From the NCBI RefSeq assembly GCF_001238295.1, contig NZ_LGXZ01000004.1, forward strand, positions 248,001-312,000: DNA of 64,000 nt. Reading direction: 5' to 3'. The position numbers and the translations under genes were made by a program. This DNA comes from Ruegeria sp. 6PALISEP08 (GTDB lineage Bacteria > Pseudomonadota > Alphaproteobacteria > Rhodobacterales > Rhodobacteraceae). Shown here piece by piece: positions 9,698 through 40,995 of the stretch (position 1 is the first letter of the stretch; each line of letters starts with the position of its first letter). Under the pieces are notes generated by a model, which was not told where the DNA came from, ran no database searches, and saw nothing but the letters and a program-made list of their open reading frames with translations.

Positions 9698-10126
9698 CTA
9701 GAGCCGCCCCTTGCGCGTGGACAGCAGCAAATTCGTCTCGGACCGTGTGATGCCGTCAAAGCGGCGGATCTGGAACAGAACCTCATCCAGTTCGGCCAGG
9801 GTCTCGGTGCTGATCTCTGCGATTAGATCCCAGCTGCCGTTGGTCGAATGCACTGCCGTCACCTGCCGCAGGGCCGCTATCCGCGCCATGACACGCTCTG
9901 TCCCGCGCCCTTCAATCTCTAGCATCATCAGTCCACGCACAGGGCTTTGCGCCAGATCCCTGCGTGTCAGGATAGTGAAGCCGACGATCTCACCGGATTG
10001 TTTCAGGCGCTGCAACCTGCTGCGCACAGTTGTGCGCGTCACGCCCAGCGTTTCCGACAGCTCGGACAGGCTGGCGCGTGCATCGCGTTGCAACGCATTG
10101 AGCAATCGATTATCCAAATCGTCCAT
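9698..10126 (-). CDS. Lrp/AsnC-family regulator, probable regulator of arginase
   Basis: A 142-residue protein with the AsnC winged helix at residues 1-50 (MDDLDNRLLNALQRDARASLSELSETLGVTRTTVRSRLQRL) and a C-terminal RAM ligand-binding domain (residues about 62-138). It is divergent from the arginase gene 87 bases away. The interval contains GCAAATTGC (10165-10173), a small palindrome of a type compatible with Lrp sites. By analogy with Lrp-type activators of arginine catabolism in rhizobia and agrobacteria, it probably activates the arginase gene in response to arginine or ornithine; that is inference from position. Confidence 0.85.
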   Translation of the reverse strand: MDDLDNRLLNALQRDARASLSELSETLGVTRTTVRSRLQRLKQSGEIVGFTILTRRDLAQSPVRGLMMLEIEGRGTERVMARIAALRQVTAVHSTNGSWDLIAEISTETLAELDEVLFQIRRFDGITRSETNLLLSTRKGRL

Positions 10127-10212
10127 GCTTTCTTCCCATTAAGAACTATCAGGAACCATTTTGAGCAAATTGCAGTCTTCACGCAAGGCACTCTGACATC
10201 GTAAATGGACAC

Positions 10213-23699: not shown

Positions 23700-24200
23700 A
23701 TGACCGAAAAGACCTTTACCCCTACGCCGGATCAAAGCCCCGCCTTTCGCGAGGCGCTGGGGTGCTTTGGCACTGGCGTCACCGTGATCACCACACAAAC
23801 CGAAGGTGGACCGCGCGCGATCACTGTGAATTCCTTTGCCTCGGTCTCATTGGACCCGCCGCTGGTGTTGTGGTGTCTGGCCAAGGAATCGTACCGTTTC
23901 GATGCCTTCAGCAGCTGTGAACATTATTCGATTCATGTGATGGCACAGGATCAACAGGATCAGGCGCTGCGGTTTGCGCGTGACGGTGCAGATTTCTCAC
24001 ATGCAGATTGGACTGAGGATAAGACCGGTCGCCCGCAATTGACCCAATGTCTGGCGCGGTTTGATTGCCGCCTGCATGCGCGGCACGACGCCGGGGATCA
24101 TCTGATTATTGTCGGTCAGGTGGATCAGGTAATGTACCGCACCGGCAAGGGTTTGATCTTCAAGCGCGGTCAGTTCGGCGGGTTTGTCGACCTGATCTAA
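23700..24200 (+). CDS. Flavin reductase family protein
   Basis: A 166-residue FMN-binding split-barrel protein (flavin_reduct domain) with GCFGTGVTVITT, ITVNSFASVSLDPPLVLWCLAKES and the C-terminal LIFKRGQFGGFVDL, typical of NAD(P)H:flavin oxidoreductases that feed reduced flavin to two-component monooxygenases. ATG 23700 is preceded by AAGGAAG; the upstream frame from 23664 has no Shine-Dalgarno. No partner oxygenase lies beside it. Its stop codon overlaps by two bases the stop of the gene on the opposite strand. Confidence 0.88.
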   Translation: MTEKTFTPTPDQSPAFREALGCFGTGVTVITTQTEGGPRAITVNSFASVSLDPPLVLWCLAKESYRFDAFSSCEHYSIHVMAQDQQDQALRFARDGADFSHADWTEDKTGRPQLTQCLARFDCRLHARHDAGDHLIIVGQVDQVMYRTGKGLIFKRGQFGGFVDLI

Positions 24201-24676
24201 TCGTCCAGCGACCCATGCACGGCAAGCGCCTCAAGCTGGGCGTCCTGCGGCGTGATGACTCGATAGCTTTCGTGCACACCTGCCTCGCTCAACTCACGGG
24301 CTACGGTGAGCAAAGTGTTGGCGGCATGGTCTTCGCACAGGTCAGACATGTGATCGATTTCGGATTGTGCGACGCCCATTGCGGCCTCGACCGATGGCGC
24401 GCCGTAGAATTGTACAAAATGTTCGGCCAGATTGCGCGTTATCTGATCCTTCTCTGCAGGCTCGATCTGTGTCACGGCGACAAATGTGACGCGGCCAAAG
24501 GTCTCCAGACCCAACCAGCCATTTGCAAATGCCTGCCGCGCCTTACCCTCAAGATCGGCATCGCTCCAGTTCGAAAACTCGAACCCGCCGGACACACACC
24601 ATTCTCCGGTACGGGCCGGGGAATGAAACACGTTCATATCGCTTTCGTCGAAATGGATTGCGCGGGCCAGTTTCAT
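24197..24676 (-). CDS. DUF6505-like conserved protein
   Basis: A 159-residue cytoplasmic protein beginning MKLARAIHFDESDMNVFH with the stretches TGEWCVSGGFEFSNW and LAEHFVQFYGAPS. From memory it fits DUF6505, a family seen next to the ligase-like gene found here. Its start overlaps the stop of the upstream gene by four bases (ATGA type), so it is translationally coupled in an mrp - ligase-like - DUF6505 operon. No catalytic motif is evident. The neighbouring genes suggest a part in maturation of formate dehydrogenase or its electron carriers, as inference only. Confidence 0.65.
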   Translation of the reverse strand: MKLARAIHFDESDMNVFHSPARTGEWCVSGGFEFSNWSDADLEGKARQAFANGWLGLETFGRVTFVAVTQIEPAEKDQITRNLAEHFVQFYGAPSVEAAMGVAQSEIDHMSDLCEDHAANTLLTVARELSEAGVHESYRVITPQDAQLEALAVHGSLDD

Positions 24677-25371
24677 CGTCCGTTCTCCAACACTTCGGTC
24701 AGGGGGCGCAAGCGCGTGTCTGCACCGTCGCGGATCAGCATCCCGAACCGCTCATCCGTTCCAAGGAACACACCGCCGTCCGTTAGCGGATCACCAACAC
24801 CGCGCAAAAGCGCCATCCAGTCGGTATGCAACGGCGCGTTGCCTTCCTCTTGCCATCGATTGAGCCAGGTCAACATGTGACGAGACCAGCTTTCGACCAG
24901 TTGCGTCGCGGAAACCTCTGCGCACCCTTCGTCATAGAGCGCGGTAACGTCCGGGTTCGCACCCGGCGCTTCGCTGGTTTGCAACAGCGCCAGTTCCCAA
25001 CCAACAATCAGCCAATCCGGCTCGTCTTCGGCTGAGGTGTCCGAGGCGGCGACCCGAAACTTCCCACATTTTGCGCCGTTCACGCAGATCAATCCGTCCC
25101 AGCCGAGATGCACGGCAACCTCGGGCGGAGCCAGAGCGCCCAGCGCATTCTGAAACCCCACAGCGCAAAGGGGCAGCATCGCCATGGCGTCCCGCAACGG
25201 CACCTCGGGCGCAAAGACGATGGCAACGCGCAGGCGGTCGGCCTGAATGTTGTAGACGACCGTTCCCGCGTCACAACCCAGTGCCGCCATAGCCTGCGCG
25301 CGGTCGAACGGGTCTTCCCCACCCTGAACAGAGTGGCCCGTCAGCAAAGGGGGAAAGACCGGCTGGCTCAT
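24673..25371 (-). CDS. Biotin/lipoate-protein-ligase-like protein (DUF4444 C-terminus)
   Basis: A 232-residue protein with a biotin/lipoate A/B ligase-like fold in its first two thirds (RLRVAIVFAPEVPLRDAMAMLPLCAVGFQNALGALAPPEVAVHLGWDGLICVNGAKCGKFRV) and a C-terminal segment typical of DUF4444. The usual BirA GRGR motif is absent, and the block GLICVNGAKCGK stands where ligases have the lysine-bearing GKKVAG. Activity on biotin, lipoate or another cofactor is therefore uncertain. It overlaps its neighbours by four bases on each side. Confidence 0.7.
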   Translation of the reverse strand: MSQPVFPPLLTGHSVQGGEDPFDRAQAMAALGCDAGTVVYNIQADRLRVAIVFAPEVPLRDAMAMLPLCAVGFQNALGALAPPEVAVHLGWDGLICVNGAKCGKFRVAASDTSAEDEPDWLIVGWELALLQTSEAPGANPDVTALYDEGCAEVSATQLVESWSRHMLTWLNRWQEEGNAPLHTDWMALLRGVGDPLTDGGVFLGTDERFGMLIRDGADTRLRPLTEVLENGR

Positions 25372-26429
25372 GCGAAGCCGTTCGAGATCAGGTCGCGTGC
25401 GATTTTGCGGAACGACTCGGCCTGTGGGCTGTCGGGTTTGCTGACCACGATGGGTGCCCCCCCGTCGGCAGCGACACGAATATCCAGATGCAGCGGAATC
25501 TCACCCAGCAACGGTACACCCAGCGTCTCAGCCTCGGAGGCGACACCGCCATGGCCAAACACATGCTCTTCGTGCCCGCAGTTCGAGCAGATGTGGGTCG
25601 ACATGTTTTCAATCATACCCACGATCGGAGTCTTGAGCTGGTTGAACATGTCGATCCCCTTGCGGGCGTCGATCAGGGCTACATCCTGCGGGGTTGAGAC
25701 GACGATAGCACCGTCCACCTGGAATTTCTGACTCAGCGTCAATTGCACATCGCCGGTGCCGGGTGGAAGGTCGACGATCAGCACGTCCAAAGCGCCCCAC
25801 TGAACCTGACCCATCATCTGTTGCAGCGCGCCCATCAGCATGGGTCCGCGCCAGACAACGGCCTGACCTTCGTTGGTCATCAGCCCCATGGACATCATGG
25901 TCACGCCGTGATTGCGCAACGGCAGGATGGTCTTGCCGTCCGGGCTGGCCGGACGACCGGAAACACCCAGCATCCGGGGCTGCGACGGGCCGTAAACATC
26001 AGCGTCCAGCAAACCCACACGGCGACCTTCGGCGGCCAAGGCGCAAGCAAGGTTCGCGGACACGGTGGATTTGCCGACGCCACCTTTACCGGATGCGACC
26101 GCTATGATCCGATCGACACCTGGAACGGCCTGCGGCCCGGTTTGCGATGGCTTGGGCTTCGGCTTCAAATCTGGCGGGGCCTTTTCGGAATGCGCAGTCA
26201 TCATGGCCGAGACATTGGCCACACCGTCAACCATCTGCGCGGCCTTCTCGGCCGTTGCCCGTACAGGCTCCATCTGTTCGGCGTGCTTTGGGTCGATCTC
26301 CAGCACAAAACGCACGGTGTCGCCTTCCACGTTCAGTGCCCGCACAACGCCCGCGCTGACAATATCTTGCCCGGACACCGGATCGGTGATCTTTTTCAGG
26401 TTCGCCAGAACCGCATCACGAACACTCAT
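25368..26429 (-). CDS. Mrp/NBP35-family Fe-S carrier ATPase (ApbC-like)
   Basis: A 353-residue cytoplasmic P-loop ATPase that carries and delivers Fe-S clusters. The N-terminal MIP18-like domain (about 3-80) is followed by the deviant Walker A SGKGGVGKST at residues 113-122, the switch region LLDADVYGPSQPRMLG, and the cluster-binding CxxC (HICSNCGHEEHVFG). Length is normal. It is first in the minus-strand operon and divergent, 123 bases away, from the c-type cytochrome gene. Its location beside a very Fe-S-rich formate dehydrogenase island suggests it serves that system, though such proteins are often general. Confidence 0.92.
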   Translation of the reverse strand: MSVRDAVLANLKKITDPVSGQDIVSAGVVRALNVEGDTVRFVLEIDPKHAEQMEPVRATAEKAAQMVDGVANVSAMMTAHSEKAPPDLKPKPKPSQTGPQAVPGVDRIIAVASGKGGVGKSTVSANLACALAAEGRRVGLLDADVYGPSQPRMLGVSGRPASPDGKTILPLRNHGVTMMSMGLMTNEGQAVVWRGPMLMGALQQMMGQVQWGALDVLIVDLPPGTGDVQLTLSQKFQVDGAIVVSTPQDVALIDARKGIDMFNQLKTPIVGMIENMSTHICSNCGHEEHVFGHGGVASEAETLGVPLLGEIPLHLDIRVAADGGAPIVVSKPDSPQAESFRKIARDLISNGFA

Positions 26430-26552: not shown

Positions 26553-27281
26553 ATGCGCTTTGTCCTCTTGTGCCTGAGCCTGACGCTCTCTGCCACCCCC
26601 TCTTGGTCACAAGAGGCTATTGGGCTTGCGGCCCCGGCCGAGGTGAATGACTCTGGTCTGTTGCAACATATTCTTCCTCGCTTTTCTCTCAAGACCGGGA
26701 TTCGCGTTATTGCGGATGACACAGGCGTTATGGTCCTGAAGCCCGCCCCGCCCGGCGATCCGGTTTTTGCCCGCAATGATGTAATCTATCACCTCACCAT
26801 CGAAGACAATAAGCGGCAGGCTCGGTTTCGCGACTGGCTGCGTTCGGAGATCGGCAAACGCACCGTTGAGAGTTTTGCGCCCGCGCAGGGCACGCCCTTT
26901 ACCGCCAGCTTTGATCTGACGGTCACTCAGTCGGACGAAACCGTCGACGGCGATACCGTGCTTGGCGAGGAACTGTCGATGACCCATTGCGGGCGATGCC
27001 ATGTGATCGGGCCGAAGAACCGAATGAACGGGCTGGGGTCGACGCCTTCTTTCCCAGTGCTGCGCGCAATGCCCGACTGGTCTGAACGGTTCGAGGCGTT
27101 CTTTGCCTTGAACCCCCACCCCGCGTTTACGCAAATAGACGGGCTGACACCGCCTTTTGACCCCGAACGCCCGTCTCCCATTCACCCGGTCGAGATCACG
27201 CTGGACGATCTTGACGCGATCCTCGCCTTTGTGTCGCGCATCGACGCGGCAGATCTTGGTGCCCCGCTGCAGTTTCAATGA
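26553..27281 (+). CDS. c-type cytochrome with TupA-like N-terminal segment
   Basis: A 242-residue exported protein (signal peptide up to about WSQ at 18-20). A single haem motif CGRCH lies at 146-150. Residues 33-63 (SGLLQHILPRF..TGIRV) and 78-117 (RFRDWL....G...VESFAPAQGTPF) resemble, in order, the start and the end of the tungstate-binding protein encoded at 38718-39536 (SGLLEYILPWF..SGIDV; RFIDWL...G.EAIASF.LEGQQVF), with the middle missing. So the gene looks like a shrunken TupA-type binding protein fused to a cytochrome c domain. It is divergent from mrp and overlaps the polyferredoxin gene tail-to-tail by seven bases. A role in electron transfer from formate dehydrogenase is inferred from place. 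Confidence 0.75.
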   Translation: MRFVLLCLSLTLSATPSWSQEAIGLAAPAEVNDSGLLQHILPRFSLKTGIRVIADDTGVMVLKPAPPGDPVFARNDVIYHLTIEDNKRQARFRDWLRSEIGKRTVESFAPAQGTPFTASFDLTVTQSDETVDGDTVLGEELSMTHCGRCHVIGPKNRMNGLGSTPSFPVLRAMPDWSERFEAFFALNPHPAFTQIDGLTPPFDPERPSPIHPVEITLDDLDAILAFVSRIDAADLGAPLQFQ

Positions 27282-29227
27282 TCCTTTCTGTCCGAATAAT
27301 AGTCTTCGGTGGTAACGACCCGAGGCTTGGGGTTTGACTGGAACGGATTGTCCTGCTGTTGGAACTGCGTATTCACCCTACAATTGTCACACATCTGGAT
27401 CATTCGTGCCTGATCCGACGTGGCAAACATCGGGTGCGTGCCCGAAAGCTTCTCCATGATCCGTTCCACAGTAGATTTCACCCCAAACAATGCACCACAT
27501 TCAACGCAAGCAAAGGGCTCCTCTTCATTGAGCACTTGCTGCGACAGGGCCGCATCACTCAAATCAAGCTGTGGGACTAGAGTGATCGCGTCTTCCGGGC
27601 AGATCGTCTTGCACATCCCGCATTGCAGACAGGCATCCTGCTGAAAGTTGAGTTGCGGCTTGTCCGGGTTGTCGATCAGTGCACCAGACGGGCACAGCGA
27701 CACACAGCTGAGACACAAGGTGCAACTGTCCTTGTTTACCGCCACCGCCCCATAAGGCGCATTTTCGGGCAGCGGCAACGGTGCCTCAGCCTGCGGGTTC
27801 AGAGCCTGCGCAGCCAATCGCGCGATCTGTCGGCGATTCCCCAGTGGCAGAACCGGATCAGCCAGAGGCTGCGGCACGTCTTGACCATAGAGCAGATCAG
27901 ACATGGCATCGGGATCAACCTCATCAATCAGGCCGATCCCGTCTGACCCGGCAATAGCGTGTGCCAGTGCAACCTCGCGATCCAGCGCGTCCCGCTCGGT
28001 CGTGGGCGCGAGCAGCACATCCACACGAGCAAATCCGTGCGCCAAGGCGGCAAGCATCTCGGCGTGACCGAAGCCCGATATAACATTTAGTTCCAACGGG
28101 ATAACATCCGAAGGTAAACCACGGCCAAAGCGTGCTGACAGCCGGATCATCTCGGACCCATGCGCATCATGGATCAGCAGTCGAGGCGCAGAACCTCCTG
28201 CACGTCGATAGGTGCGCGCCAGGATATGCATCCGGGACAACAGCGCCGATACACTCGGGTCCTCATAGGTGATCGCGGTTGACGGGCACAGAGCAGCACA
28301 CGCACCACATCCGGCGCAGACCATCGGATCGATGCTCACATGCTCTCCCGCTGGTGTAATCGCCCCGGTTGGGCAAACATCCAAGCAGTTAGAGCAGCCC
28401 ACCTGTTCGGCCCGCGAATGCGCGCAGAGTGTTTCTTCCAAACGCACGTACAGGGGCTTTTCGAACGTACCAACAAGTTGCGCAGCCTCAAACGCCAGAC
28501 GTTCAACAGCCACCGCGTCTTTTGGATCGGCCCTCAGATATCCCTCGCGCTTGGCTGGGGCTTGTACAAAGGGCGTGCTCCCTGTCAGGTCCAGAATAAT
28601 GTCACAAGCGGAATGTGCACCATCCTTAGGGTCAGTCCATGTGAAAGCGCCACGCCCACCCGGCACAACCTGTTGCAAAGCGTCCAGACGCAGGGAAAAA
28701 CCGCCCAGCGCCCCGGACACGGACTTCACCTTACCGCGAACCACATCGAACGCGCGCGAAGTCGGCTCTGCCTGATCCGTGGTCAGTATGGTCACAGCCA
28801 AGGTTCCCGCCAATTTCTCAGCCAGATCAAATCCCACCGCACCGGGGCCGATGATGAAGCAGGTTCCCTCGCTTATGACATCGACGCTGGGCGTGACCGG
28901 TTGCGGCAACAGCGCCTCAGCCGCCAATGCCGCCATCTTGGGTGCCGCATCTGCGCCCTGTTCGGACCAACCCGCACGGTCGCGCAGGTCAAAAAAGCCG
29001 GGCGTGTCAATACCCAGATCTTCAGCCAAAGACTGGAACACCTCCTGCTCTTGCAGGCAGGCGATCACGGCTTCCCCTTCTTGCATCAGGTCGGCGGCGG
29101 ATTGCAGTTGGGTTGTGCAAAGGGTCGTGTGCACCTTGGAACAGGTCAGCCCGCAGGCGCTTTCGATCCTCTCGGGGTCCAGCGCCTGTGTTCCGGCGCA
29201 GTCGCATAACAATATTTTGGTGCCCAT
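27275..29227 (-). CDS. 650-residue multi-cluster 4Fe-4S protein of the formate dehydrogenase island
   Basis: Cytoplasmic iron-sulfur protein. Residues 1-110 hold an N-terminal domain with scattered cysteines (LLCDCAGTQ, SACGLTCS, TTLCTTQ). A central region has a GPGAVGFDLAEKL motif reminiscent of a dinucleotide-binding loop (about 128-140). Two pairs of ferredoxin-type CxxCxxCxxxCP motifs follow (CSNCLDVCP and CAGCGACAALCP near 280-320; CTLCLSCVSLCP and CLQCGMCKTICP near 505-550), then C-terminal CVEC and CDNC pairs. It is similar to polyferredoxins I recall next to FDH genes. It would relay electrons or assist cluster insertion. It is divergent from the DUF3305 gene across 258 bases. Confidence 0.82.
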   Translation of the reverse strand: MGTKILLCDCAGTQALDPERIESACGLTCSKVHTTLCTTQLQSAADLMQEGEAVIACLQEQEVFQSLAEDLGIDTPGFFDLRDRAGWSEQGADAAPKMAALAAEALLPQPVTPSVDVISEGTCFIIGPGAVGFDLAEKLAGTLAVTILTTDQAEPTSRAFDVVRGKVKSVSGALGGFSLRLDALQQVVPGGRGAFTWTDPKDGAHSACDIILDLTGSTPFVQAPAKREGYLRADPKDAVAVERLAFEAAQLVGTFEKPLYVRLEETLCAHSRAEQVGCSNCLDVCPTGAITPAGEHVSIDPMVCAGCGACAALCPSTAITYEDPSVSALLSRMHILARTYRRAGGSAPRLLIHDAHGSEMIRLSARFGRGLPSDVIPLELNVISGFGHAEMLAALAHGFARVDVLLAPTTERDALDREVALAHAIAGSDGIGLIDEVDPDAMSDLLYGQDVPQPLADPVLPLGNRRQIARLAAQALNPQAEAPLPLPENAPYGAVAVNKDSCTLCLSCVSLCPSGALIDNPDKPQLNFQQDACLQCGMCKTICPEDAITLVPQLDLSDAALSQQVLNEEEPFACVECGALFGVKSTVERIMEKLSGTHPMFATSDQARMIQMCDNCRVNTQFQQQDNPFQSNPKPRVVTTEDYYSDRKDH

Positions 29228-29485: not shown

Positions 29486-30040
29486 GTGGCCAAGGCCGCA
29501 AGCCAAATCGAAATGCCGGTTGGCGTCATCGTGCGCAAGACACCCGGGGTCACACGTTGGGCCCGTTGGAGTTGGCGTGCAGTGGCCGCCGTGCCCGGTG
29601 CAGGCCCTGCCGATTGGCAGGTTCTGCGTCGTGAAGACGATGCGGTTGAATACCACGCAGCCACCTTGCCCCTGACCCTCTGGGCAGATGAGACCGAGGC
29701 TTACATGGTCAATCTGTCGGACGGGCAGCCATCGCTTTATCTGGTGTTGCGGGATGAATTGCAGGGGGATGTTCCTCTGAACGCGGTACTTGTCACTGCC
29801 TCACCTTTTGAGGGGCAGGACTATGCCGATACCGGCGAAGAGATCGTCGAGAAAATTCCCATGACCGAAGGGCTGATTGCCTGGGTGAGGGACTTCACAC
29901 TCAAGCATCATGAGCACGAAGTGTTCATAAAGCGCCGCCGGGACAAAAAACGCACCGACTTGGTCGAGGATGGCAAGGGCGACGCTCGTATCCGTCAGGA
30001 CTCGGATGTCTACCGCGCGCCCAGAAAGGTGCTGCAATGA
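29486..30040 (+). CDS. DUF3305 protein
   Basis: A 184-residue cytoplasmic protein of the DUF3305 family, opening IEMPVGVIVRKTPGVTRWARWSWRAV, the family hallmark, with a C-terminus rich in basic residues (KRRRDKKRTDL). Translation starts at GTG 29486 behind GGGGAGGAG. It is the first gene of the formate dehydrogenase operon and overlaps the DUF3306 gene by four bases. Both families are found almost only in such operons, so an assembly or regulatory role is likely; the mechanism is unknown. Confidence 0.87.
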   Translation: MAKAASQIEMPVGVIVRKTPGVTRWARWSWRAVAAVPGAGPADWQVLRREDDAVEYHAATLPLTLWADETEAYMVNLSDGQPSLYLVLRDELQGDVPLNAVLVTASPFEGQDYADTGEEIVEKIPMTEGLIAWVRDFTLKHHEHEVFIKRRRDKKRTDLVEDGKGDARIRQDSDVYRAPRKVLQ

Positions 30041-30627
30041 CCCAGTCCCGCGATTTCTGGTCCCGCCGAAAGGCCGCTGTTCAAGCTGAAGCCGAAGCCG
30101 AGGTGATTGCGGTCGAAGAACAAGCTGTCGCGGCGCGGCAGGCCGAATTGCAAGAGAAGAGTGATGCCGAGATACTGGCCGAGTTCGATCTGCCCGACCC
30201 GGATACGCTGCAACCAGGCGATGATGTGTCGGGCTTTATGGCAAAGGCCCTACCTGATCGCCTGCGTCGACGTGCGTTGCGGCAGTTGTGGCGCCTGAAC
30301 CCGGTTCTGGCCAACGTGGATGGGCTGGTTGACTACGGCGAAGACTATACCGACGCAGCCTGTGTGATCGAGAACCTCCAGACGGCGTATCAGGTTGGCA
30401 AGGGCATGCTGGCCCATGTCGAAGCGTTGGCAGCGGCGGAGGCCCCCCAAGAGGATGAGAGCGACTTCGAAGTTGAGCCCTCGCTTGAACTGGAGACGGA
30501 GCCAGCGCCTCAGATTGACTCACCCCCTGCCTCAGAGGTGCCTCTGGCAGAGGCAGAAATCGAGGTCGAAGACGAGATGGAAATGACCCCGGCGCCACGC
30601 CGCATGAAATTTGAATTTGAAGGATAA
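30037..30627 (+). CDS. DUF3306 protein
   Basis: A 196-residue acidic protein with family features RDFWSRRKAAVQAE at the N-terminus, LPDPDTLQPGDDVSGFMAKALPDRLRRRALRQLWRLNPVLANVDGLVDYGEDYTD in the middle, a Glu/Pro-rich low-complexity stretch (about 135-185), and the basic end PRRMKFEFEG. It is translationally coupled to DUF3305 (ATGA overlap) and three bases from the TorD gene. Partner of DUF3305 in formate dehydrogenase operons; function unknown. Confidence 0.87.
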   Translation: MTQSRDFWSRRKAAVQAEAEAEVIAVEEQAVAARQAELQEKSDAEILAEFDLPDPDTLQPGDDVSGFMAKALPDRLRRRALRQLWRLNPVLANVDGLVDYGEDYTDAACVIENLQTAYQVGKGMLAHVEALAAAEAPQEDESDFEVEPSLELETEPAPQIDSPPASEVPLAEAEIEVEDEMEMTPAPRRMKFEFEG

Positions 30628-30630
30628 CAG

Positions 30631-31242
30631 ATGACCGCAAGCAACGCGCAAAATATGGACATCTCGGCCGAGGATCGGCTGCGCGCGGATTTCTATAATT
30701 TTCTGGGTTTGCTTCTGGCTGGCCCACCCGATCAGTTGCTTCTGGGACAGATGGCGGGGCTGAGCGGAGACGACACCGATCTGGGTCAGGCCATTCAGGC
30801 AATGGCGCGTGTGGCCAAGGTCACCAAGCCCGCCGCCGCCGAGCGTGAGTTCAACGCACTGTTCATTGGGCTGGGTCGTGGCGAGTTGCTGCCTTATGCC
30901 AGTTTTTATCTGACGGGGTTCCTGAACGAAAAACCTCTGGCGCAATTGCGCAATGACATGGCCGTCCGGGGGATCACCCGTGCGCAGAATGTGTTCGAGC
31001 CCGAAGACAACATCGCCTCTCTGATGGAAATGATGGCGGGCATGATCGTCGGACGTTTTGGCGCCACTGCATCGCTCGAGGACCAAAAGGCGTTCTGGAA
31101 CAAGCATATCGGCCCCTGGGCCGCGCATTTTTACTCTGATTTGGAAGCTGCCGAAACCTCGGTTCTTTATGCATCCGTCGGCACAGCCGGGCGCGTGTTC
31201 ATGGAGATCGAGAGGGAAGCCTTCCGAATGACGACAGCGTGA
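30631..31242 (+). CDS. TorD/DmsD-family chaperone for formate dehydrogenase
   Basis: A 203-residue all-helical cytoplasmic chaperone. It shows RADFYNFLGLLLAGPP near the start and the family motif region YASFYLTGFLNEKPLAQLRNDM, followed by EDNIASLMEMMAGMI (typical E-x-x-D-x-I-x-x-L-x-E-x-M pattern). TorD proteins bind the twin-arginine leader and apo-form of molybdopterin enzymes and hold them until cofactor insertion is complete. The downstream FDH alpha gene with its own twin-arginine leader is the obvious client. Confidence 0.9.
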   Translation: MTASNAQNMDISAEDRLRADFYNFLGLLLAGPPDQLLLGQMAGLSGDDTDLGQAIQAMARVAKVTKPAAAEREFNALFIGLGRGELLPYASFYLTGFLNEKPLAQLRNDMAVRGITRAQNVFEPEDNIASLMEMMAGMIVGRFGATASLEDQKAFWNKHIGPWAAHFYSDLEAAETSVLYASVGTAGRVFMEIEREAFRMTTA

Positions 31243-31597: not shown

Positions 31598-34492
31598 ATG
31601 CTTAGGAAAAAGACCAACGGGGTTGCGAGACGCCCCCAGCGGACAAGTATCCTGTCCCAGGTCGGCGAAAAAACCGTCGATCGCCGCGCATTTCTGCGTG
31701 GCTCGGGCCTCACGATCGGCGGTCTTGCCGCGATCAGCGCCACGGGTGGAACCGTGACGCCAGCCAGTGCCCAGACAGCGGCCAATCAGGCCGTCGAGAA
31801 TATCAAATCCATCTGCACCCACTGCTCGGTCGGATGTACGGTTATCGCCGAAGTGCAGAACGGTGTCTGGATCGGGCAGGAACCCGGTTGGGACAGCCCC
31901 TTCAACCTGGGCGCACACTGCGCCAAGGGCGCTGCCGTTCGAGAGCACGCGCATGGTGAACGCCGCCTCAAGTACCCGATGAAAAAAGAAGGCGGCGAGT
32001 GGAAGCGCATCAGCTGGGAAGAAGCGATCAACGAGATCGGCGACGGCATGATGAGCATCCGCGAAGAATCCGGGCCGGACAGCGTATACTGGCTGGGTTC
32101 AGCCAAACATAACAACGAACAGGCCTACCTGTTCCGCAAGTTTGCTGCCTATTGGGGCACGAACAACGTGGACCATCAGGCCCGTATCTGCCACTCAACC
32201 ACTGTTGCGGGGGTTGCGAATACATGGGGCTACGGCGCCATGACCAATTCGTATAACGACATCCACAACTCTCGGGCTATCTTCATTATCGGCGGTAACC
32301 CGGCCGAGGCGCACCCGGTCTCGCTGCTGCACGTTTTGCGCGCGAAAGAGCAGAACAACGCCCCGCTGATCGTCTGCGATCCGCGCTTTACGCGCACCGC
32401 GGCGCATGCGGATGAATATGTCCGCTTCCGCCCCGGTACCGACGTCGCTTTGGTCTGGGGTATTCTGTGGCACATCTTCGACAACGGATGGGAGGACAAA
32501 GAGTTCATCCGCACCCGTGTCTGGGGGATGGACCAGATCCGTGAAGAGGTCGCCAAGTGGAACCCGGATGAGGTCGAACGCGTCACCGGTACGCCGGGAT
32601 CGCAGCTGAAGCGTGTTGCGCGCACCATGGCCAACAACCGTCCTGGAACGGTGATCTGGTGTATGGGTGGCACGCAGCATACCAACGGCAACAACAACAC
32701 CCGCGCTTACTGCGTGCTACAGCTTGCGCTTGGCAACATGGGCACCTCGGGTGGTGGCACCAACATCTTCCGCGGCCATGACAACGTGCAGGGTGCGACG
32801 GACCTCGGTGTTCTGTCCCATACCCTGCCCGGCTACTATGGTCTTTCGGCCGGTGCCTGGGGACACTGGGCCCGTGTCTGGGGTGAAGAACCGGAATGGC
32901 TAGCTGGCCAGTTCGCCTCGATCAAAGACAAGGAAGGCAAGGACAAGCCGCTGCAGAACGAACGCGGCATACCTGTTTCCCGTTGGATCGATGGTGTTCT
33001 GGAAGACCCGGCAAACATGGATCAGGACAACAATGTCCGCGCTATGGTTCTGTGGGGCCACGCGCCCAACTCGCAGACCCGGATGACGGAAATGAAGACG
33101 GCGATGGAGAAGCTGGACATGCTGGTCGTGATCGACCCGTATCCCACCGTCTCGGCCGTTCTGCATGACCGTACCGATGGCGTTTACCTGTTGCCCGCCT
33201 GTACGCAGTTCGAAACTCGTGGCTCGGTCACGGCATCGAACCGGTCGCTGCAGTGGCGCGACAAGGTTGTGGAACCACTGTTCGAAAGTCTGCCGGACGA
33301 GGTCATCATGGCCAAGTTCGCAAACAAGTTCGGATGGGCAGACCGACTCTTCCGCAATATCGAAATGGATGACCCGGAAACCCCGAATGTTGAAAGCATC
33401 ACACGTGAGTTCAACTCCGGCCTCTGGACCATCGGTTACACCGGTCAATCGCCGGAACGGCTGAAAAGCCATATGGCCAACCAGCATACGTTCGACAGAA
33501 CCACGCTGCAGGCAATCGGCGGACCAAACGACGGCGAGTACTACGGTCTGCCCTGGCCTTGCTGGGGAACTGCTGAGATGGGTCATACGGGGACTCCGAA
33601 CCTCTATGACATGTCCAAACCGGTGGCCGAAGGCGGCCTGACCTTCCGTGCCCGCTTTGGCGTGGAACGCGATGGCGACAATCTGCTGGCCGAAGGGGTC
33701 TATAGCGTTGGATCGGAAATTCAGGATGGATACCCTGAATTCACGATGCAGATGCTGATGGACCTGGGTTGGGACGGCGATCTGACCGACGAAGAGCGCG
33801 CGGCCATTGACGCCGTTGCCGGTCCAAAGACCAACTGGAAAACTGACCTTTCGGGCGGTATCCAGCGCGTCGCAATCAATCATGGCTGTGCGCCCTTCGG
33901 GAACGCAAAGGCACGCGCGGTTGTCTGGACCTTCCCGGATCCGATCCCGCTGCATCGCGAGCCGCTCTATACCAACCGGCGCGATCTGGTCGAGGACTAT
34001 CCGACCTACGAAGATCGTCAGGCCTATCGCCTACCCACCCTTTACGCTTCGATCCAGAAGAACGACTTTTCAAAGGATTACCCGATAATCCTGACGTCTG
34101 GTCGTCTGGTCGAATATGAAGGCGGCGGCGATGAGACACGGTCGAACCCGTGGCTGGCTGAGCTGCAGCAGGACATGTTCGTCGAGATCAATCCGCGCGA
34201 TGCCAACAACCTTGGTATTCGCGACGGATCACAGGTCTGGGTCGAAGGTCCCGAGGGCGGCAAGGTCAAGGTGATGGCGATGCTGACCAATAGGGTCGGT
34301 GCCGGCGTGGCCTTCATGCCGTTCCACTTTGGCGGCCATTTCCAGGGCGAAGACCAGCGGCACAAGTACCCCGCCGGAGCAGACCCCTATGTGCTGGGTG
34401 AAAGTACCAACACCGCCCAGACCTACGGCTATGATTCAGTGACCCAGATGCAGGAGACCAAGTGTACTCTCTGCAAAATCTGGGCAGCGTAA
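31598..34492 (+). CDS. Formate dehydrogenase alpha subunit (catalytic, Mo/W-bis-MGD)
   Basis: Oxidises formate to CO2 on the periplasmic side. The 964-residue protein has a twin-arginine leader ([18 protein letters not shown]), an N-terminal 4Fe-4S motif ([10 protein letters not shown]...HCAKGA), and the molybdopterin oxidoreductase and dinucleotide-binding domains. The catalytic site is Cys198-His199 in [11 protein letters not shown], a cysteine rather than selenocysteine (codon TGC at 32189). [10 protein letters not shown] and [19 protein letters not shown] are FDH hallmarks. Start ATG 31598 follows GGAGGAAACAA. The adjacent tungstate transporter suggests a tungsten form, which sequence cannot prove. 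Confidence 0.95.
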
Positions 34493-34503
34493 GGAGGACG
34501 ATA

Positions 34504-35097
34504 ATGGCTAGAGCAAAGTTTCTCTGCGACGCTGAACGCTGCATCGAGTGCAACGCCTGCGTAACCGCGTGTAAGAACGAGCACGAAGTGCCGTGGGGCA
34601 TCAACCGCCGCAGGGTGGTGACGATCAATGACGGCAACCCGGGTGAACGCTCGATCTCGGTCGCCTGCATGCATTGCTCGGATGCGCCCTGTATGGCGGT
34701 GTGCCCGGTCGACTGCTTCTATCAGAACGAAGAAGGGGTCGTCCTGCATTCCAAGGACCTGTGTATTGGTTGCGGCTATTGCTTCTACGCGTGCCCCTTT
34801 GGCGCACCGCAATATCCGCAGGCGGGCAACTTCGGATCGCGTGGCAAAATGGACAAATGTACCTTCTGTGCCGGCGGCCCCGAGGAAACGCACTCGACCG
34901 CAGAGTTCGCCAAATATGGTCGCAACCGGATCGCCGAGGGCAAACTGCCCATCTGCGCCGAGATGTGTTCCACCAAGGCCCTGCTTGCCGGTGACGGCGA
35001 CGTAGTGTCCGCAGTCTACCGCGAACGCGTCGTGGCGCGCGGGTTTGGCTCGGGCGCGTGGGGTTGGGGCACAGCCTACGACCAGAAAGACGGCTAA
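34504..35097 (+). CDS. fdh3B: Formate dehydrogenase beta subunit (FDH3 type, four 4Fe-4S clusters)
   Basis: Electron-transfer subunit of 197 residues linking alpha to gamma. Sixteen or so cysteines form four ferredoxin-type clusters: [45 protein letters not shown], and KCTFC with a later [12 protein letters not shown] 34504 has TAAGGAGG directly upstream; the longer frame from 34462 overlaps the alpha gene. It lacks a membrane anchor helix such as the one in E. coli FdnH, in line with the short FDH3 beta type. Eleven bases after alpha. Confidence 0.93.
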
Positions 35098-35172
35098 GAC
35101 CGCCTTTTCGTGAACCAAACAGGCGACCTGCATCCGTGGGTCGCCTGATCAGGGATTTTGACCGAGGTTCAG

Positions 35173-36381
35173 ATGTTCCGCTTTCTCATCGCATTGCTGT
35201 TCACCTTTGGGTTGGCACAGGCCACCGTTGCACAAACCGCCGAGACCGAGACCCCGCCTGCCTCGGATGAGCGCGCCTCGACCGGAGGCGCAACAACGCT
35301 TGAGGATATCCTTGCGCGACAGCGAGGCGAAAAAGTGGACAACACCTATCGCTCGGAAAACACCGGCCAGGGCAATGTCGAAGGTTTTCTGGGCCAGTTT
35401 GGACCCAGCGGCGTGTCTTCGGACAGCGATATATACCGCGCGCTGCGCTTTGGCTCGGCGGATGTCACTGTTTCATCACGGGGGCCTGCCGACAGTGTGC
35501 TGATCCAGGATGGCGGCATGTGGTGGTGGGAATTCCGCACCGGCCCACTGCGCGAATACGGCACCTATATCATCGCCGGAATGCTGGGCATCATTGTTCT
35601 GTTCTTCCTAATCCGCGGCAAAATCCGCATCGACGGAGAGAAAACCGGCCGAACCGTCACCCGCTTTAATGGATTTGAACGATTTGGCCACTGGCTGTTT
35701 GCAGGGTCGTTCCTGATCCTTGGCGTCACCGGTCTGCTGACGCTTTATGGCCGCGACTTCCTGATGCCGATCTTCGGAAAAGAAGGCTTTGCCACCATCG
35801 CTCAAAGCTGCAAGTGGCTTCACAACAATCTGGCTTGGGCTTTCATGCTGGGGTTGATCATCGTGACCGTGAATTGGATCGCGCACAACATCCCCAACCG
35901 CACCGACCTGAAATGGCTGGCCGCCGGTGGGGGGCTGTTTACCAAAGGTAGCCATCCGCCCGCCAAGAAATTCAACGCAGGCCAAAAGGTGATCTTCTGG
36001 GCCTGTATCCTGCTGGGCGCTTCGATCAGCCTGTCCGGACTGTCGCTACTGTTCCCGTTCGAGCTGCCGATGTTCGCCAAGACATTCTCTGTTGCCAATG
36101 CCACCGGCATTCCACAGTTTCTGGGCCTGAACCTGCCCGTGCAGATGTCGCCGCAAGAAGAAATGCAATACGCACAGATATGGCACGTAATGGTCGCCTA
36201 TGCCTTCATCGCCATCATCATTGCGCATATCTACCTTGGGTCCGTCGGGATGGAAGGCGCGTTTGATGCCATGGGTACTGGCGAGGTCGAAGAACAATGG
36301 GCCCGCGAACATCACTCGCTGTGGTTGGAAGAGGTGCAGGAAAAAGAGGCTGGCAAGGCAGCGGCCTCACCTGCCGAATAG
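35173..36381 (+). CDS. Formate dehydrogenase gamma subunit (cytochrome b)
   Basis: Membrane anchor and dihaem cytochrome b of about 402 residues. A signal peptide (MFRFLIALLFTFGLAQATVAQ) precedes a periplasmic region of about 110 residues, then a helix (near 138-157) and the four-helix FdnI-like core with haem-ligand histidines (FERFGHWLFAGSFLILGVTG, WLHNNLAWAFMLGLIIVTVNWIAHN, AQIWHVMVAYAFIAIIIAHIYLG). ATG 35173 has GAGG eight... five bases upstream; TTG 35158 is an in-frame alternative. The long periplasmic N-terminal region is larger than in E. coli FdnI. It ends exactly where the WD40-cytochrome gene begins. Confidence 0.92.
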   Translation: MFRFLIALLFTFGLAQATVAQTAETETPPASDERASTGGATTLEDILARQRGEKVDNTYRSENTGQGNVEGFLGQFGPSGVSSDSDIYRALRFGSADVTVSSRGPADSVLIQDGGMWWWEFRTGPLREYGTYIIAGMLGIIVLFFLIRGKIRIDGEKTGRTVTRFNGFERFGHWLFAGSFLILGVTGLLTLYGRDFLMPIFGKEGFATIAQSCKWLHNNLAWAFMLGLIIVTVNWIAHNIPNRTDLKWLAAGGGLFTKGSHPPAKKFNAGQKVIFWACILLGASISLSGLSLLFPFELPMFAKTFSVANATGIPQFLGLNLPVQMSPQEEMQYAQIWHVMVAYAFIAIIIAHIYLGSVGMEGAFDAMGTGEVEEQWAREHHSLWLEEVQEKEAGKAAASPAE

Positions 36382-37644
36382 ATGCGCTGGCTGATCTTTG
36401 CCTTTGCGGTGATCCCCCTGCCCGCGTGGTCAGAGTTCTTTACGCTCAAAGGCCATGGTGGGCCGATCATGGGGATCGCCACGGCACCAGACGGCCGGAT
36501 CGCAACAGCCAGTTTCGACAACTCCGTCGGGCTATGGTCGAACCAGACGCCCGAATGGCTGGAAGGTCACGAAGCTGCCGTCAACGCGGTCGTCTTCAAC
36601 GGCACAGCGATCTATTCCGCCGGAGATGATTTCACTCTGCGTCGCTGGCCGGGCGGAGAGATCGTAGGTCAGCACAAAGGCAAGATCGTTTCTGTGGCTG
36701 CTTCCAAAACTCATGTAGCAACGGCCAGTTGGGACGGCACCATCGGCTTATGGCCTGTCGATGGCACCGCCCCCACCCTGTTCGGCCCCACGGGCAGTGG
36801 CGTGAACGCGGTCGTCTTTTCCCCGGATGGATCACAACTTTATTCCGCAGGTGTAGATGGATCGTTGCGCCTGTGGGAAGTTGATACCGGTGCGGAAACA
36901 GATCGTCTGGTGGAACACGGCTTTGGCATCAACGAATTGATTTTGAATGCGCAGGACAACTGGATCGCCTATGGCGCAGTGGACGGGGTGACGCGCATCC
37001 TCGATTTGACCACGGGTGAGGAACGCGACTTCACACTGGACCGCCGCCCGATCCTGGCCTTGGCACTCAGCCCGGACCGAAGCCTTTTGGCTGTTGGCGA
37101 CGGCGAAGGCTATATCATGACGATCGACACGACCGAATGGCGCATCACGCAGGATTTCCGTGCGACGCTGCGCGGACCGGTCTGGGCGCTGACGTTCTCA
37201 AGCGACGGTCAGAACATTCACGCAGGTGGCATAGACGCCGCTATGTACAGCTGGCCTGTGGGTGAGCTGTCGGATCAACAGCAAATGGCCTCGACCGCGC
37301 CCAGTTTTCTGAAAGATCCCGAAGAGATGGAGAACGGAGAACGTCAGTTCGCCCGCAAATGCTCGATCTGCCATAGCCTGACACCCGACAGCGGACGCCG
37401 GGCGGGGCCGACACTGCATGGCATCTTTGGGCGGCCCGCAGGATCGCTGCCCGGATATTTATACTCGGATACGCTGCAAGACTCTGATATTGTTTGGAAT
37501 GAACAGACAATAAATACCCTTTTCGATGAAGGGCCGGATCATTACATTCCGGGGTCGAAGATGCCGATGCAACGGATTGCAGAACAGCAGGACCGGGACG
37601 ACCTGATCGCCTTCCTGCGCCGTGCAACGGACGACCAGAACTGA
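36382..37644 (+). CDS. WD40-repeat protein fused to mono-haem cytochrome c
   Basis: A 420-residue exported protein. It has a signal peptide (MRWLIFAFAVIPLPAWS), a beta-propeller of about seven WD40-type repeats (residues about 20-300; FDNSVGLWSN, WDGTIGLWPVDG, VDGSLRLWEVDTG), and a class-I cytochrome c domain with CSICH at 327-331 and the distal ligand region PGSKMPMQRI. Family end DDLIAFLRRA is present. The ATG touches the gamma stop. This cytochrome may accept electrons from the gamma subunit, or the propeller may dock it on the complex; both are inferences. Confidence 0.88.
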   Translation: MRWLIFAFAVIPLPAWSEFFTLKGHGGPIMGIATAPDGRIATASFDNSVGLWSNQTPEWLEGHEAAVNAVVFNGTAIYSAGDDFTLRRWPGGEIVGQHKGKIVSVAASKTHVATASWDGTIGLWPVDGTAPTLFGPTGSGVNAVVFSPDGSQLYSAGVDGSLRLWEVDTGAETDRLVEHGFGINELILNAQDNWIAYGAVDGVTRILDLTTGEERDFTLDRRPILALALSPDRSLLAVGDGEGYIMTIDTTEWRITQDFRATLRGPVWALTFSSDGQNIHAGGIDAAMYSWPVGELSDQQQMASTAPSFLKDPEEMENGERQFARKCSICHSLTPDSGRRAGPTLHGIFGRPAGSLPGYLYSDTLQDSDIVWNEQTINTLFDEGPDHYIPGSKMPMQRIAEQQDRDDLIAFLRRATDDQN

Positions 37645-37783: not shown

Positions 37784-38656
37784 ATGTCTCAATATCTGAC
37801 CACACGCGAACTGGCCGATCTGTTGCGCATTGGCGAGCGGAAAGCCTATGATCTTGCCTCTTCGGGCGAGGTGCCCTGCGTGCGCGCCATGGGCAAGCTG
37901 CTGTTCCCCAGAGCCGAGATCATTGCCTGGCTCAACGCCTCGCGATCCGGCCCGCAGGTGGCCGAACCGCCCCTGCCCCCGATTGTTGCAGGCAGCCATG
38001 ATCCTTTGCTGGATTGGGCATTGCGCGAAAGCGGATCGGGTCTAGCGACCTATTATGATGGCTCCTTCGACGGATTGACTCGGCTGAGCGACCGCAGCGC
38101 CCAGGCGGCAGTGCTTCACATCCACGAAGAGGACGGATTCAACACCAGTTCCCTGCGCGACGCGTTGGGCGAAGCCCCGGTGATCCTCTATGAAGTCGCC
38201 CGGCGTGAGCGCGGGCTGCTGCTTGCCCCAGGCGTTTCGGATATCAAATCCTTCGAAGACCTCAAATCGCGCCGCGTCATCCTGCGTCAGGACAGTGCAG
38301 CCAGCCAACACCTGTTTGATGCCCAACTTTCAGCCCACGACATGAGCCGGGATGATCTGGATATCTGCCCTGGCTGCGCACGCACCGAAGAAGAACTGGC
38401 CATCGCCCTGCACGATCAAAAGGCCGAGGCTGGCTTTGGTCTGGGTGCTTTGGCCGGGCTTTACGACCTGGGTTTTGTCCCAACCCATTCCGAAAGGCTG
38501 GACCTGGCGATCTGGCGACGGTCCTTTTTCGATCCACCAATACAAAAGCTGATGACGCTCTTGCATTCAGATCAATTCACCCAGCGCGCCCTGGAATTCG
38601 GTGGCTATGATCTGTCGGGAACCGGCACCATCCACCACAATGGTGCCAGTGAGTGA
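37784..38656 (+). CDS. Helix-turn-helix regulator with periplasmic-binding-protein-like sensor (PBP_like)
   Basis: A 290-residue cytoplasmic regulator. The N-terminal excisionase/MerR-like helix-turn-helix (residues 3-50: YLTTRELADLLRIGERKAYDLASSGEVPCVRAMGKLLFPRAEIIAWL) is joined to a PBP-like domain (about 70-285) related to molybdate/tungstate-binding proteins (LRDALGEAPVILYEVARRERGLLLAPG; VILRQDSAASQHLFDAQL; AIALHDQKAEAGFGLGALAG). It follows the 41-residue peptide with no gap and faces the convergent tupA. It likely senses tungstate or molybdate and controls tup and/or fdh genes; the palindrome upstream of tupB is a candidate site. Confidence 0.82.
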   Translation: MSQYLTTRELADLLRIGERKAYDLASSGEVPCVRAMGKLLFPRAEIIAWLNASRSGPQVAEPPLPPIVAGSHDPLLDWALRESGSGLATYYDGSFDGLTRLSDRSAQAAVLHIHEEDGFNTSSLRDALGEAPVILYEVARRERGLLLAPGVSDIKSFEDLKSRRVILRQDSAASQHLFDAQLSAHDMSRDDLDICPGCARTEEELAIALHDQKAEAGFGLGALAGLYDLGFVPTHSERLDLAIWRRSFFDPPIQKLMTLLHSDQFTQRALEFGGYDLSGTGTIHHNGASE

Positions 38657-38717: not shown

Positions 38718-39536
38718 CTATTGGGCATTTGGGAAAAACACCTGCTGTCCTTCAAGCCGGAAGGATGCAATCGCCTCCTGCCCATCCGCCCCGGTCAGCC
38801 AGTCAATAAAACGCTGACCGGAAGCCGCCCGCACATGATGGTGCTTTTTAGGATTCACAAGGATCACACCGTATTGATTGAACAAGCGCGGATCGCCCTC
38901 GACCAATACCTCAAGATTGCCCCGGTTGCCAAAGGACAGCCACGTGGCCCGGTCTGTCAGCGTATAGGCGTCCATTCCGCTGGCCACGTTCAGGGTTGCG
39001 CCCATGCCCGATCCGGTTTCACGATACCACGCGCCCGAGGCACCCGTTGGATCAAGACCGGCAGCCGACCAATGGCTCAGCTCGGCCTTATGCGTCCCAC
39101 TGTCATCGCCACGCGATGCAAAGGGGGCTTCAGCTTCCGCAATGGCAGTCAAAGCAGCCAGAATGTCGGATCCGCCACGAATCTCGGCCGGATCCGATTT
39201 TGGGCCGACCAGAACAAAATCGTTGTACATCAGGTCTTTGCGTTCAACGCCCCAGCCGTCTGCGACAAATTTCTCCTCGGCCGGCTTGGCATGGACCAGC
39301 AGTACGTCGCCGTCCCCATTGATCGCATTGCGAATGGCCTGACCTGTTCCCACCGCAACAACGCGCACGTCTATGCCGGACTCGGCCTCGAACCACGGCA
39401 GAATATACTCCAATAACCCAGAGTTCTGCGTCGATGTCGTGGATTGGACGACGATGAACGGCGTTTCCGCCGAAACCGCCCCCGCCGTTAAGCCAAGTGC
39501 CACTGCTGCTGCCCGAATAGCTGCCCGGAACATCAT
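38718..39536 (-). CDS. tupA: Tungstate ABC transporter substrate-binding protein TupA
   Basis: Periplasmic oxyanion-binding protein of 272 residues. Signal peptide 1-23 (ALGLTAGAVSAETP). Family motif QSTTSTQNSGLLEYILPWFEAESGIDV at 31-57 contains the TTST oxyanion site; further blocks are DVLLVHAKPAEEKFV, NDFVLVGPKSDPAEIRGG and FASRGDDSGTHKAELSHW. TupA proteins bind tungstate in preference to molybdate. Last gene of the minus-strand tupBCA operon, convergent with the HTH-PBP regulator. The supply of tungsten for the neighbouring formate dehydrogenase is the likely purpose. Confidence 0.92.
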   Translation of the reverse strand: MMFRAAIRAAAVALGLTAGAVSAETPFIVVQSTTSTQNSGLLEYILPWFEAESGIDVRVVAVGTGQAIRNAINGDGDVLLVHAKPAEEKFVADGWGVERKDLMYNDFVLVGPKSDPAEIRGGSDILAALTAIAEAEAPFASRGDDSGTHKAELSHWSAAGLDPTGASGAWYRETGSGMGATLNVASGMDAYTLTDRATWLSFGNRGNLEVLVEGDPRLFNQYGVILVNPKKHHHVRAASGQRFIDWLTGADGQEAIASFRLEGQQVFFPNAQ

Positions 39537-39554: not shown

Positions 39555-40289
39555 TTAAGTAACCAGCCCACCCGCCAGATAGCGACGCGATGCCTCGCTT
39601 TCGGGGGCATCCAATACCTGTTTTGCAGGTCCATGTTCGACCACGTGTCCGCCCTGCATCATGACTATGTCAGCGGCCAACCGCCGCGCCTGCCCGATGT
39701 CGTGCGTCACCATCACGATCCGCACCCCACGTGTCGAGGCGCGCTGGATCATCCGTTCGATCATCTGAGTGGCGCTTGGGTCCAGGGCGCTGGTGGGTTC
39801 ATCCAAAAACAGGGTTTCAGGGCCTGTCGCCAAGGCGCGGAGGATCGCCAGCCGCTGCGCCTCGCCCCCGGACAGAGATCGTGCAGATTGTCGGGCTTTG
39901 TCTTCCAGCCCGCCCTCGGTCAGCAATTCGGCAATCCGGGTTTTGCGCGCGTCACGTGCTATCTTCTGTCGTCTTAGGACAAAGTCCAGATTGGCCGAAA
40001 CCGAACGCCGCAGAAGAACCGGTTGCTGAAACACCATGGCCTGTCGTGCCGTGTGAACGGGACCCAAGGGTGCACCATCCTGAATGACCCGCCCCTGATC
40101 CGGGCTGATCAACCCGTGCAAACACCGCAACAACAGACTTTTGCCCGCGCCATTTGGTCCCAGCAACAACGTTGGTCCCGGCCCATCCAGCGTCAGATCA
40201 GCAACATCCAGCAAAGCCCTGCCGTTGCGGCGGATCTGAAGGCCGCGCACCTGCAGACACTTCGTCATGTCGCAAAGCAAATCACGCAT
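39555..40289 (-). CDS. tupC: Tungstate ABC transporter ATP-binding protein TupC
   Basis: A 244-residue ABC ATPase with Walker A GPNGAGKS, Q-loop VFQQPVLLRRS, signature LSGGEAQRLAILRAL, Walker B TLFLDEPTSALD and switch histidine MVTHD. ATG 40289 has AGGAGG eight bases upstream (inside the end of tupB) and overlaps the tupB stop by eight bases, so translation is coupled. An in-frame ATG at 40268 is a weaker option. It powers import of tungstate with TupA and TupB. Confidence 0.92.
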   Translation of the reverse strand: MRDLLCDMTKCLQVRGLQIRRNGRALLDVADLTLDGPGPTLLLGPNGAGKSLLLRCLHGLISPDQGRVIQDGAPLGPVHTARQAMVFQQPVLLRRSVSANLDFVLRRQKIARDARKTRIAELLTEGGLEDKARQSARSLSGGEAQRLAILRALATGPETLFLDEPTSALDPSATQMIERMIQRASTRGVRIVMVTHDIGQARRLAADIVMMQGGHVVEHGPAKQVLDAPESEASRRYLAGGLVT

Positions 40290-40995
40290 GGCGCAAACCC
40301 TCCTGTTCGGCCCGCAGACTGGCGGCGCTGACCATGGCGTTTACCACCACCGCAATCCCGATCAGGATTGCCCCCAAGGCCAGTGCCAGCGCGAGATTGC
40401 CTTTCGACGTCTCAAGAGCAATCGTTGTCGTCATAACTCGCGTAACATGGTTGATATTTCCGCCCACGATGATGACCGCACCCACCTCGGCAATTGCACG
40501 TCCAAACCCGGCCAACAAGGCCGTGACCAAAGCCAGGCGTGCGTCCCACAGCAGCACAGGAACCGATGCAAGGCGCGACACGCCCAAGGATCGCAACTGT
40601 TCGGAATACTCCTCGGCCAGCATTTCGATCACTTGCCGGGTCAGCGCGGCAACGATCGGGGTGACCAGAACCACCTGCGCGATGATCATGGCCGTCGGGG
40701 TATACAAAAGCTCAAGCACTCCCAAGGGGCCGGAACGGGACAACATCAGATAGACCAGCAGTCCAACGACGACGGGCGGGAACCCCATTAGCGCATTCAT
40801 CAGCACGATCAACGAGCGCCGTCCAGGGAACCGGGCGACAGCCAAAGCCGCACCGACAGGCATCCCGATCAGGGCAGAAATCAGCACCGCAAACACGGAT
40901 ACTTTCAGGGACAAAAGCACAATCGCCCAAAGCTCTGAGTCTCCTTCGAAGATCAAAGCAACCGCCAAGCTGAATTCTGATGCTAATCCCTGCAT
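40282..40995 (-). CDS. tupB: Tungstate ABC transporter permease TupB
   Basis: A 237-residue inner-membrane permease with about five helices and the cytoplasmic EAA-like loop EYSEQLRSLGVSRLASVPVLL that contacts the ATPase; AEVGAVIIVGGNINHVTRVMTTTIAL is typical for TupB. First gene of tupBCA. Its ATG at 40995 lies 18 bases after a perfect palindrome and behind a weak Shine-Dalgarno, which may matter for regulation. Confidence 0.92.
   Translation of the reverse strand: MQGLASEFSLAVALIFEGDSELWAIVLLSLKVSVFAVLISALIGMPVGAALAVARFPGRRSLIVLMNALMGFPPVVVGLLVYLMLSRSGPLGVLELLYTPTAMIIAQVVLVTPIVAALTRQVIEMLAEEYSEQLRSLGVSRLASVPVLLWDARLALVTALLAGFGRAIAEVGAVIIVGGNINHVTRVMTTTIALETSKGNLALALALGAILIGIAVVVNAMVSAASLRAEQEGLRHA

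Follow-up and report, generated by a model that had tools for sequence, protein, structure and literature searches.

A secreted mono-haem cytochrome c of a formate dehydrogenase island carries one lobe of the tungstate-binding protein TupA

What would half of a solute-binding protein do at the front of an electron carrier? The question is raised by a gene of Ruegeria sp. 6PALISEP08 that lies in a formate dehydrogenase (FDH) and tungstate-uptake (tup) island, within the 64,000 nucleotides of DNA analysed here (the window). Its 242-residue product (Table 1) is named ‘hypothetical protein’ in four of five plasmid records and ‘c-type cytochrome’ in the fifth. Periplasmic binding proteins (PBPs) have two lobes and work by closing on a ligand, and it is their lobes that engage ABC permeases in the general picture. 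A reading made from the sequence alone had proposed that the cytochrome contains a TupA-type PBP domain from which the central lobe is missing, and had offered docking, metal sensing or protein contact as its role.

Table 1. The fused cytochrome, its parts and its neighbours (positions counted from the first nucleotide of the window)
Feature	Positions	Strand	Remarks
Whole gene, secreted mono-haem c-type cytochrome with N-terminal TupA lobe-A domain	26553..27281	+	242 aa
Signal peptide	26553..26609	+	approximately residues 1-19; cleavage site putative; from sequence, homologues and low pLDDT
TupA lobe-A domain	26610..26912	+	residues 20-120; lobe B and oxyanion motif absent
Helix a1 and SGLL..LPRFSLKTG motif	26649..26699	+	residues 33-49
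C-terminal lobe-A helices, F.DWL.S..G.RT..SF	26823..26876	+	residues 91-108
Variable linker	26913..26945	+	residues 121-131; mean pairwise identity 0.16
Mono-haem cytochrome c domain	26946..27260	+	residues 132-236; PF00034 below cut-off
Haem attachment CGRCH	26988..27002	+	residues 146-150
His189	27117..27119	+	invariant; candidate second axial haem ligand, ligation putative
DUF6505 protein	24197..24676	-
Biotin/lipoate ligase-like protein	24673..25371	-	PF16917
ApbC/Mrp-type Fe-S carrier	25368..26429	-	divergent neighbour
Multi-[4Fe-4S] ferredoxin-like protein of FDH island	27275..29227	-	tail-to-tail neighbour
DUF3305	29486..30040	+
DUF3306	30037..30627	+
TorD-type chaperone	30631..31242	+
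Formate dehydrogenase alpha subunit	31598..34492	+	N-terminal RRAFLR read as Tat signal
FDH3-type beta subunit	34462..35097	+	NF038355
Formate dehydrogenase gamma subunit	35158..36381	+	cytochrome b
TupA	38718..39536	-	source family of lobe-A domain
ABC ATPase and TupB-like permease	39555..40995	-

The N-terminal 100 residues of the cytochrome are lobe A of TupA, a homology that was confirmed computationally. Single sequences gave little of this signal: BLASTP of the fused cytochrome against the TupA of the window (the single pair compared) aligned 39 residues at 46% with an E value of 1e-5, a search of its own genome found TupA at E 0.056 only, and phmmer reached TupA structures at E 0.87 and 1.1 only. 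A single-sequence search of 394 sampled genomes of the family also matched a second group of sequences (E 1.5e-6 to 7.6e-4), and all six of these that were fetched proved to be full-length TupA. When families were compared with families, each end of the domain, taken alone, matched its own end of TupA (N-terminal piece 95.7%, E 9e-9; C-terminal piece 97.1%, E 6e-11). A hidden Markov model (HMM) of the whole domain was run against 8340 ORFs, a set enriched for TupA by the TupA loci that had been fetched, and recovered 31 of the 31 TupA ORFs, 30 of them at E <= 2.5e-8 and one at 0.017; two ORFs labelled ‘other’ were cytochrome homologues, and the next-best other ORF had E 0.61. The model of the N-terminal piece alone recovered 26 of the 31 (best 1.7e-4), with a decoy at 0.036. 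The resemblance to TupA is real. The top three of the profile’s 32 matches to the PDB sequence set were 3muq (1.2e-4), 3cvg (0.0017) and 5my5 (0.0047), all relatives of the TupA of the window. Pfam and NCBIfam gave no match to the lobe-A domain of the window protein; among 35 members, three solute-binding families each matched a single member. The window’s own TupA scores 216.7 bits against the NCBIfam TupA model, which has a cut-off of 400.

The structure model supports the same assignment. Residues 21-120 were predicted with a pLDDT of 90-96 and contain a one-lobe type II PBP fold built from the N- and C-terminal segments. The prediction shows lobe A of TupA, the outcome that the sequence-only reading had named as supporting its proposal. 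The second lobe and the ligand cleft are absent: the two conserved blocks are 50 residues apart in the window protein versus 196 in TupA, and 49-55 apart in most of the fused family (up to 90). VIA-align ranked the model clearly, with binding proteins in the top places and TupA first; the best Foldseek match was 3muq at E 0.018, with nothing at E <= 0.001. Elsewhere the model is poor, with pLDDT under 50 at residues 1-18 and 52-80 per block over residues 121-230, lower towards the end, and a pTM of 0.49. A chance resemblance of short motifs, which the short pairwise alignment, the weak own-genome match and the Foldseek result might suggest, was ruled out by the profile, HMM and structural results, each independent of the others, and is virtually impossible. 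The architecture proposed by the sequence-only reading is thereby upheld.

The other half of the protein is a mono-haem cytochrome c domain. It has a single CXXCH, placed near the start of the domain as in class I cytochromes c (PF00034), and scores 18.3 bits (E 0.006) against PF00034, the curated gathering cut-off being 21.3 bits; it differs from class I in having an invariant histidine and no conserved distal methionine. Across 35 members, PF00034 matched 21 at E <= 0.01. Judged by conservation, no methionine qualifies as a distal ligand, as the best (158) is present in 70% of 159 proteins versus 100% for His189, which is also found in 12 aligned unfused relatives. This pattern suggests a bis-His haem. 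The protein would reside in the periplasm, and because FdhA has a Tat-like leader, FDH and the fused cytochrome would both be located there.

The gene has a conserved place in the island. In a set of 99 loci (one genome counted twice; the 45 named loci mostly Ruegeria), island genes were found near the cytochrome in 96, the ferredoxin-like gene in 95 and apbC in 93; the three loci without island genes (L083-L085) hold the cytochrome only. Most of these loci also hold genes for DUF6505 (92 loci) and for the biotin/lipoate ligase-like protein (92); the literature search found no paper on DUF6505. Operons in which FDH genes stand together with DUF3305/DUF3306 and a TorD/DmsD-type chaperone have been described (PMC4464133) and represent the same kind of island, but the available passages of that paper name no fused cytochrome. 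The island has a second odd cytochrome architecture, a WD40 beta-propeller with a C-terminal cytochrome c domain encoded directly after the FDH gamma subunit (36382-37644, +) and found at a like distance in 45 of 45 genome contig loci. Beside tupA lies a gene for an HTH_17 and PBP_like protein (37784-38656, +), probably a DNA-binding regulator whose sensor domain is of the PBP type, and an NMT1/THI5-like substrate-binding protein (41154-42155, -) adjoins the tup genes.

The distribution of the fused protein was examined in the same 394 family genomes, 154 of which were positive; sorting by score and residues covered gave 136 with the fused protein, 3 with the cytochrome only and 15 with TupA only, the last class having been read in five of its 15 genomes. 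Six carriers matched in the C-terminal half only, and when read these also had lobe A. With FdhA called at E <= 1e-250 and TupA at E <= 1e-40, FdhA was found in 184 genomes and TupA in 257, and 182 of the 184 FdhA-positive genomes have TupA. Carriers almost always have both FdhA (131/136) and TupA (134/136), as expected if the cytochrome always accompanies fdh and tup genes; that association fails in the other direction, as the fused protein is missing from 53 of the 184 FdhA genomes (an unfused cytochrome is present in three of the 53). The islands of 20 of these 53 genomes were fetched, and in 15 of them apbC adjoins the ferredoxin-like gene with no fused cytochrome between, the other five being cut short or rearranged; in these 20 stretches the family HMM matched only four TupA genes and one sequence at E 0.17. 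On an FdhA tree of 64 rows (44 of the 54 carriers given, plus 20 non-carriers), the fused protein switches between present and absent 11 times, against a shuffle mean of 17, and well-supported branches force at least seven of the switches. The FdhA genomes and islands that lack the fused protein argue against a strict need for it in FDH activity or maturation, and FDH already has its own cytochrome b subunit; since so many FDH islands do without it, the cytochrome would be an accessory. One genome that has the fused cytochrome and FdhA also contains a TupA match with two internal TGA codons (G200:C1:1857563-1858324).

Relatives without lobe A indicate where the fusion came from. In a class sample, 25 of 385 genomes were positive and seven matches spanned both halves, five in the window’s family and two (G678 and G755) in one other family. 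The remaining matches covered the cytochrome part alone, except that of G690 (query 54-129), which contains an internal stop, has no CXXCH in the three forward frames at the locus and was left unclassified. A phylum sample gave 16 positives in 398 genomes, seven spanning both halves and all seven in the window’s family. The ten unfused loci at E <= 1e-26 were all fetched with their flanks: seven are near fdh/tup island genes (L266, L267, L268, L269, L270, L272 and L276) and three are away from them (L271, L273 and L277). In L266 (G488, 7442-7909) the site between apbC and the ferredoxin-like gene is taken not by the fused protein but by an unfused cytochrome with its own signal-like start. In L267 and L268, both from one other family, TupA, a LysR-type HTH gene, DUF3144, the unfused cytochrome, DUF6494, ApbC, the ligase and DUF6505 are found side by side (gene families were determined for L267 alone); DUF6494 and DUF3144 may take part in the same pathway.

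The small cytochromes of L266, L267, L268, L272 and L276 share the CXXCH and a PH motif with the fused protein, are of the same cytochrome family and often sit in the same kind of island; they differ in lacking lobe A, a signal-like stretch leading straight into the haem domain. Within the window’s family, three genomes (G004, G054 and G338) combine FdhA with an unfused cytochrome that lies away from the island, which means that the cytochrome can persist without lobe A; one unfused member (L085) lies among housekeeping genes and another (L083) beside unrelated genes. Because the unfused loci are mostly near fdh/tup genes and the fusion is nearly confined to one family, the cytochrome is probably an old resident of fdh/tup islands, one that probably gained a single TupA lobe in the line leading to the window’s family. 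A tree of the cytochrome domain (64 of 185 rows, 116 columns, many unresolved forks) did not show whether there was a single fusion event, or whether the family’s unfused copies are losses.

Conservation was measured in 159 non-redundant fused proteins. Arg43, Trp95, Cys146, Arg148, Cys149, His150 and His189 are conserved at 1.00 and Lys47 at 0.99 (rounded). Residues 33-49 have a mean pairwise identity of 0.65 and residues 91-108 one of 0.53, against 0.57 for the cytochrome; identity falls to 0.24 in the shrunken middle, where gaps lower the value, and to 0.16 in the linker. The TupA positions equivalent to Arg43 and Lys47 are variable. As the helices are kept and these two residues are new relative to TupA, the two lobe-A helices constitute a face that has been both kept and altered.

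The reading favoured here, to which a probability of about 0.5 is given, is that lobe A is a docking module by which a periplasmic electron carrier attaches to the FDH/Tup machinery, and to FDH first. Computation shows the homology, the fold as predicted, the lost ligand site, the conserved position in the genome and the conserved lobe-A helices; the docking role, the periplasmic location and the bis-His haem are inferred. The fused protein would be the periplasmic mono-haem cytochrome c of an FDH3-type formate dehydrogenase island, in which TupA lobe A was captured as a folded unit after losing lobe B and the oxyanion motif. No longer binding an oxyanion, it would now serve as a rigid docking module, and its a1/C-helix face, with the new Arg43 and Lys47, would tie the cytochrome to a periplasmic partner. 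The likeliest partner would be the Tat-exported FDH itself and the next likeliest the TupB/TupA side. Docking would place the haem where it could exchange single electrons with FDH or take part in a redox step that maintains the enzyme’s metal cofactor. Of the roles that had been suggested from the sequence, docking or protein contact is therefore the one retained as the best reading; metal sensing is not, for reasons given below.

The same module could instead regulate tungstate uptake, docking on the permease TupB in competition with TupA, with the state of the haem setting the strength of the interaction. Descent from TupA, whose known partner is TupB, speaks for this, as do the presence of TupA in nearly all carriers and the position of the unfused relative in L276 (G810, 7665-10340), immediately before tupB-tupC-tupA, with others near TupA. 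However, Arg43 is invariant and Lys47 nearly so, and neither is a feature of TupA, which indicates that the docking face has changed and is unlike that of TupA. Moreover, tupA, approximately 11 kb from the fused gene in the window, was inside the fetched stretch (flanks of approximately 6-10 kb) in just 19 of 99 loci, as opposed to 96 for FDH-island genes. A redox-gated role at TupB is consequently considered unlikely. It is also doubtful that lobe A acts within its own molecule, with no partner, by packing on the haem domain to shield the haem edge or set its potential. A compact domain always precedes the haem in the fused family, and the new arginine and lysine could meet the haem propionates, but such packing fits poorly with a linker as variable as this one, with a model of such low pTM, and with unfused relatives that manage without lobe A.

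That lobe A is a decaying leftover of gene fusion and does nothing by itself is very improbable and largely refuted: the middle of the domain is indeed shrunken and variable, but both helices are approximately as conserved as the cytochrome and carry new residues that are invariant or nearly so across the 159 non-redundant proteins. The word ‘remnant’, used of the domain in the sequence-only reading, is misleading for the same reason.

An ability to bind or sense tungstate or molybdate would be consistent with descent from TupA and with location in an island for a W/Mo enzyme, and was assessed through the ligand site. In D. alaskensis TupA (5my5), the lobe-B ligands are Arg118, Thr124 and Asp170, and TupA delivers to TupB (PMC5517513). 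Eight ligand or motif positions, matched by motif to residues named in the available text of that paper, are invariant in 23 of 23 TupA sequences, and all eight are present in the TupA of the window. In the fused protein the segment bearing the lobe-B ligands is part of what is missing, and without lobe B there is no cleft. The lobe-A oxyanion motif (TTTS / STTST), retained in 23 of 23 TupA, keeps three or more Ser/Thr in its five positions in none of 157 fused proteins, and a pattern search for the D...H of TupA where His59 would lie succeeded in two of 159. The fused protein thus differs from TupA in lacking lobe B and the oxyanion motif and in having a cytochrome, and with these losses tungstate binding by the lobe-A domain appears very unlikely; a sensing role has hardly any probability left.

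A single PBP lobe that stays conserved after its ligand site is gone probably does something else. If docking is its role, this would to our knowledge be the first case of half a solute-binding protein serving as the docking part of an electron carrier. The parts are of known kinds; what is new is that they are combined, and that one PBP lobe is used after losing its ligand site. No description of the lobe-A/cytochrome fusion was found in a literature search that covered titles, the starts of abstracts and passages of PMC13197769, with subscription journals mostly outside its scope, and the new fusions around molybdoenzymes listed in the available part of PMC6147048 include none of this kind.

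A broader idea, put forward tentatively, is that a ligand-less PBP lobe may act as an adaptor for redox proteins, docking a haem protein on the tungstate permease, at the docking site of TupA, or on the W/Mo FDH and thereby coupling redox state to metal supply or enzyme upkeep. Through the fusion, a periplasmic cytochrome can be linked with tungstate uptake and formate dehydrogenase in a way open to testing, in a large bacterial group that includes Ruegeria and Roseovarius. Natural genetic controls exist, as the same place in the island holds the fused protein, an unfused cytochrome (L266) or nothing.
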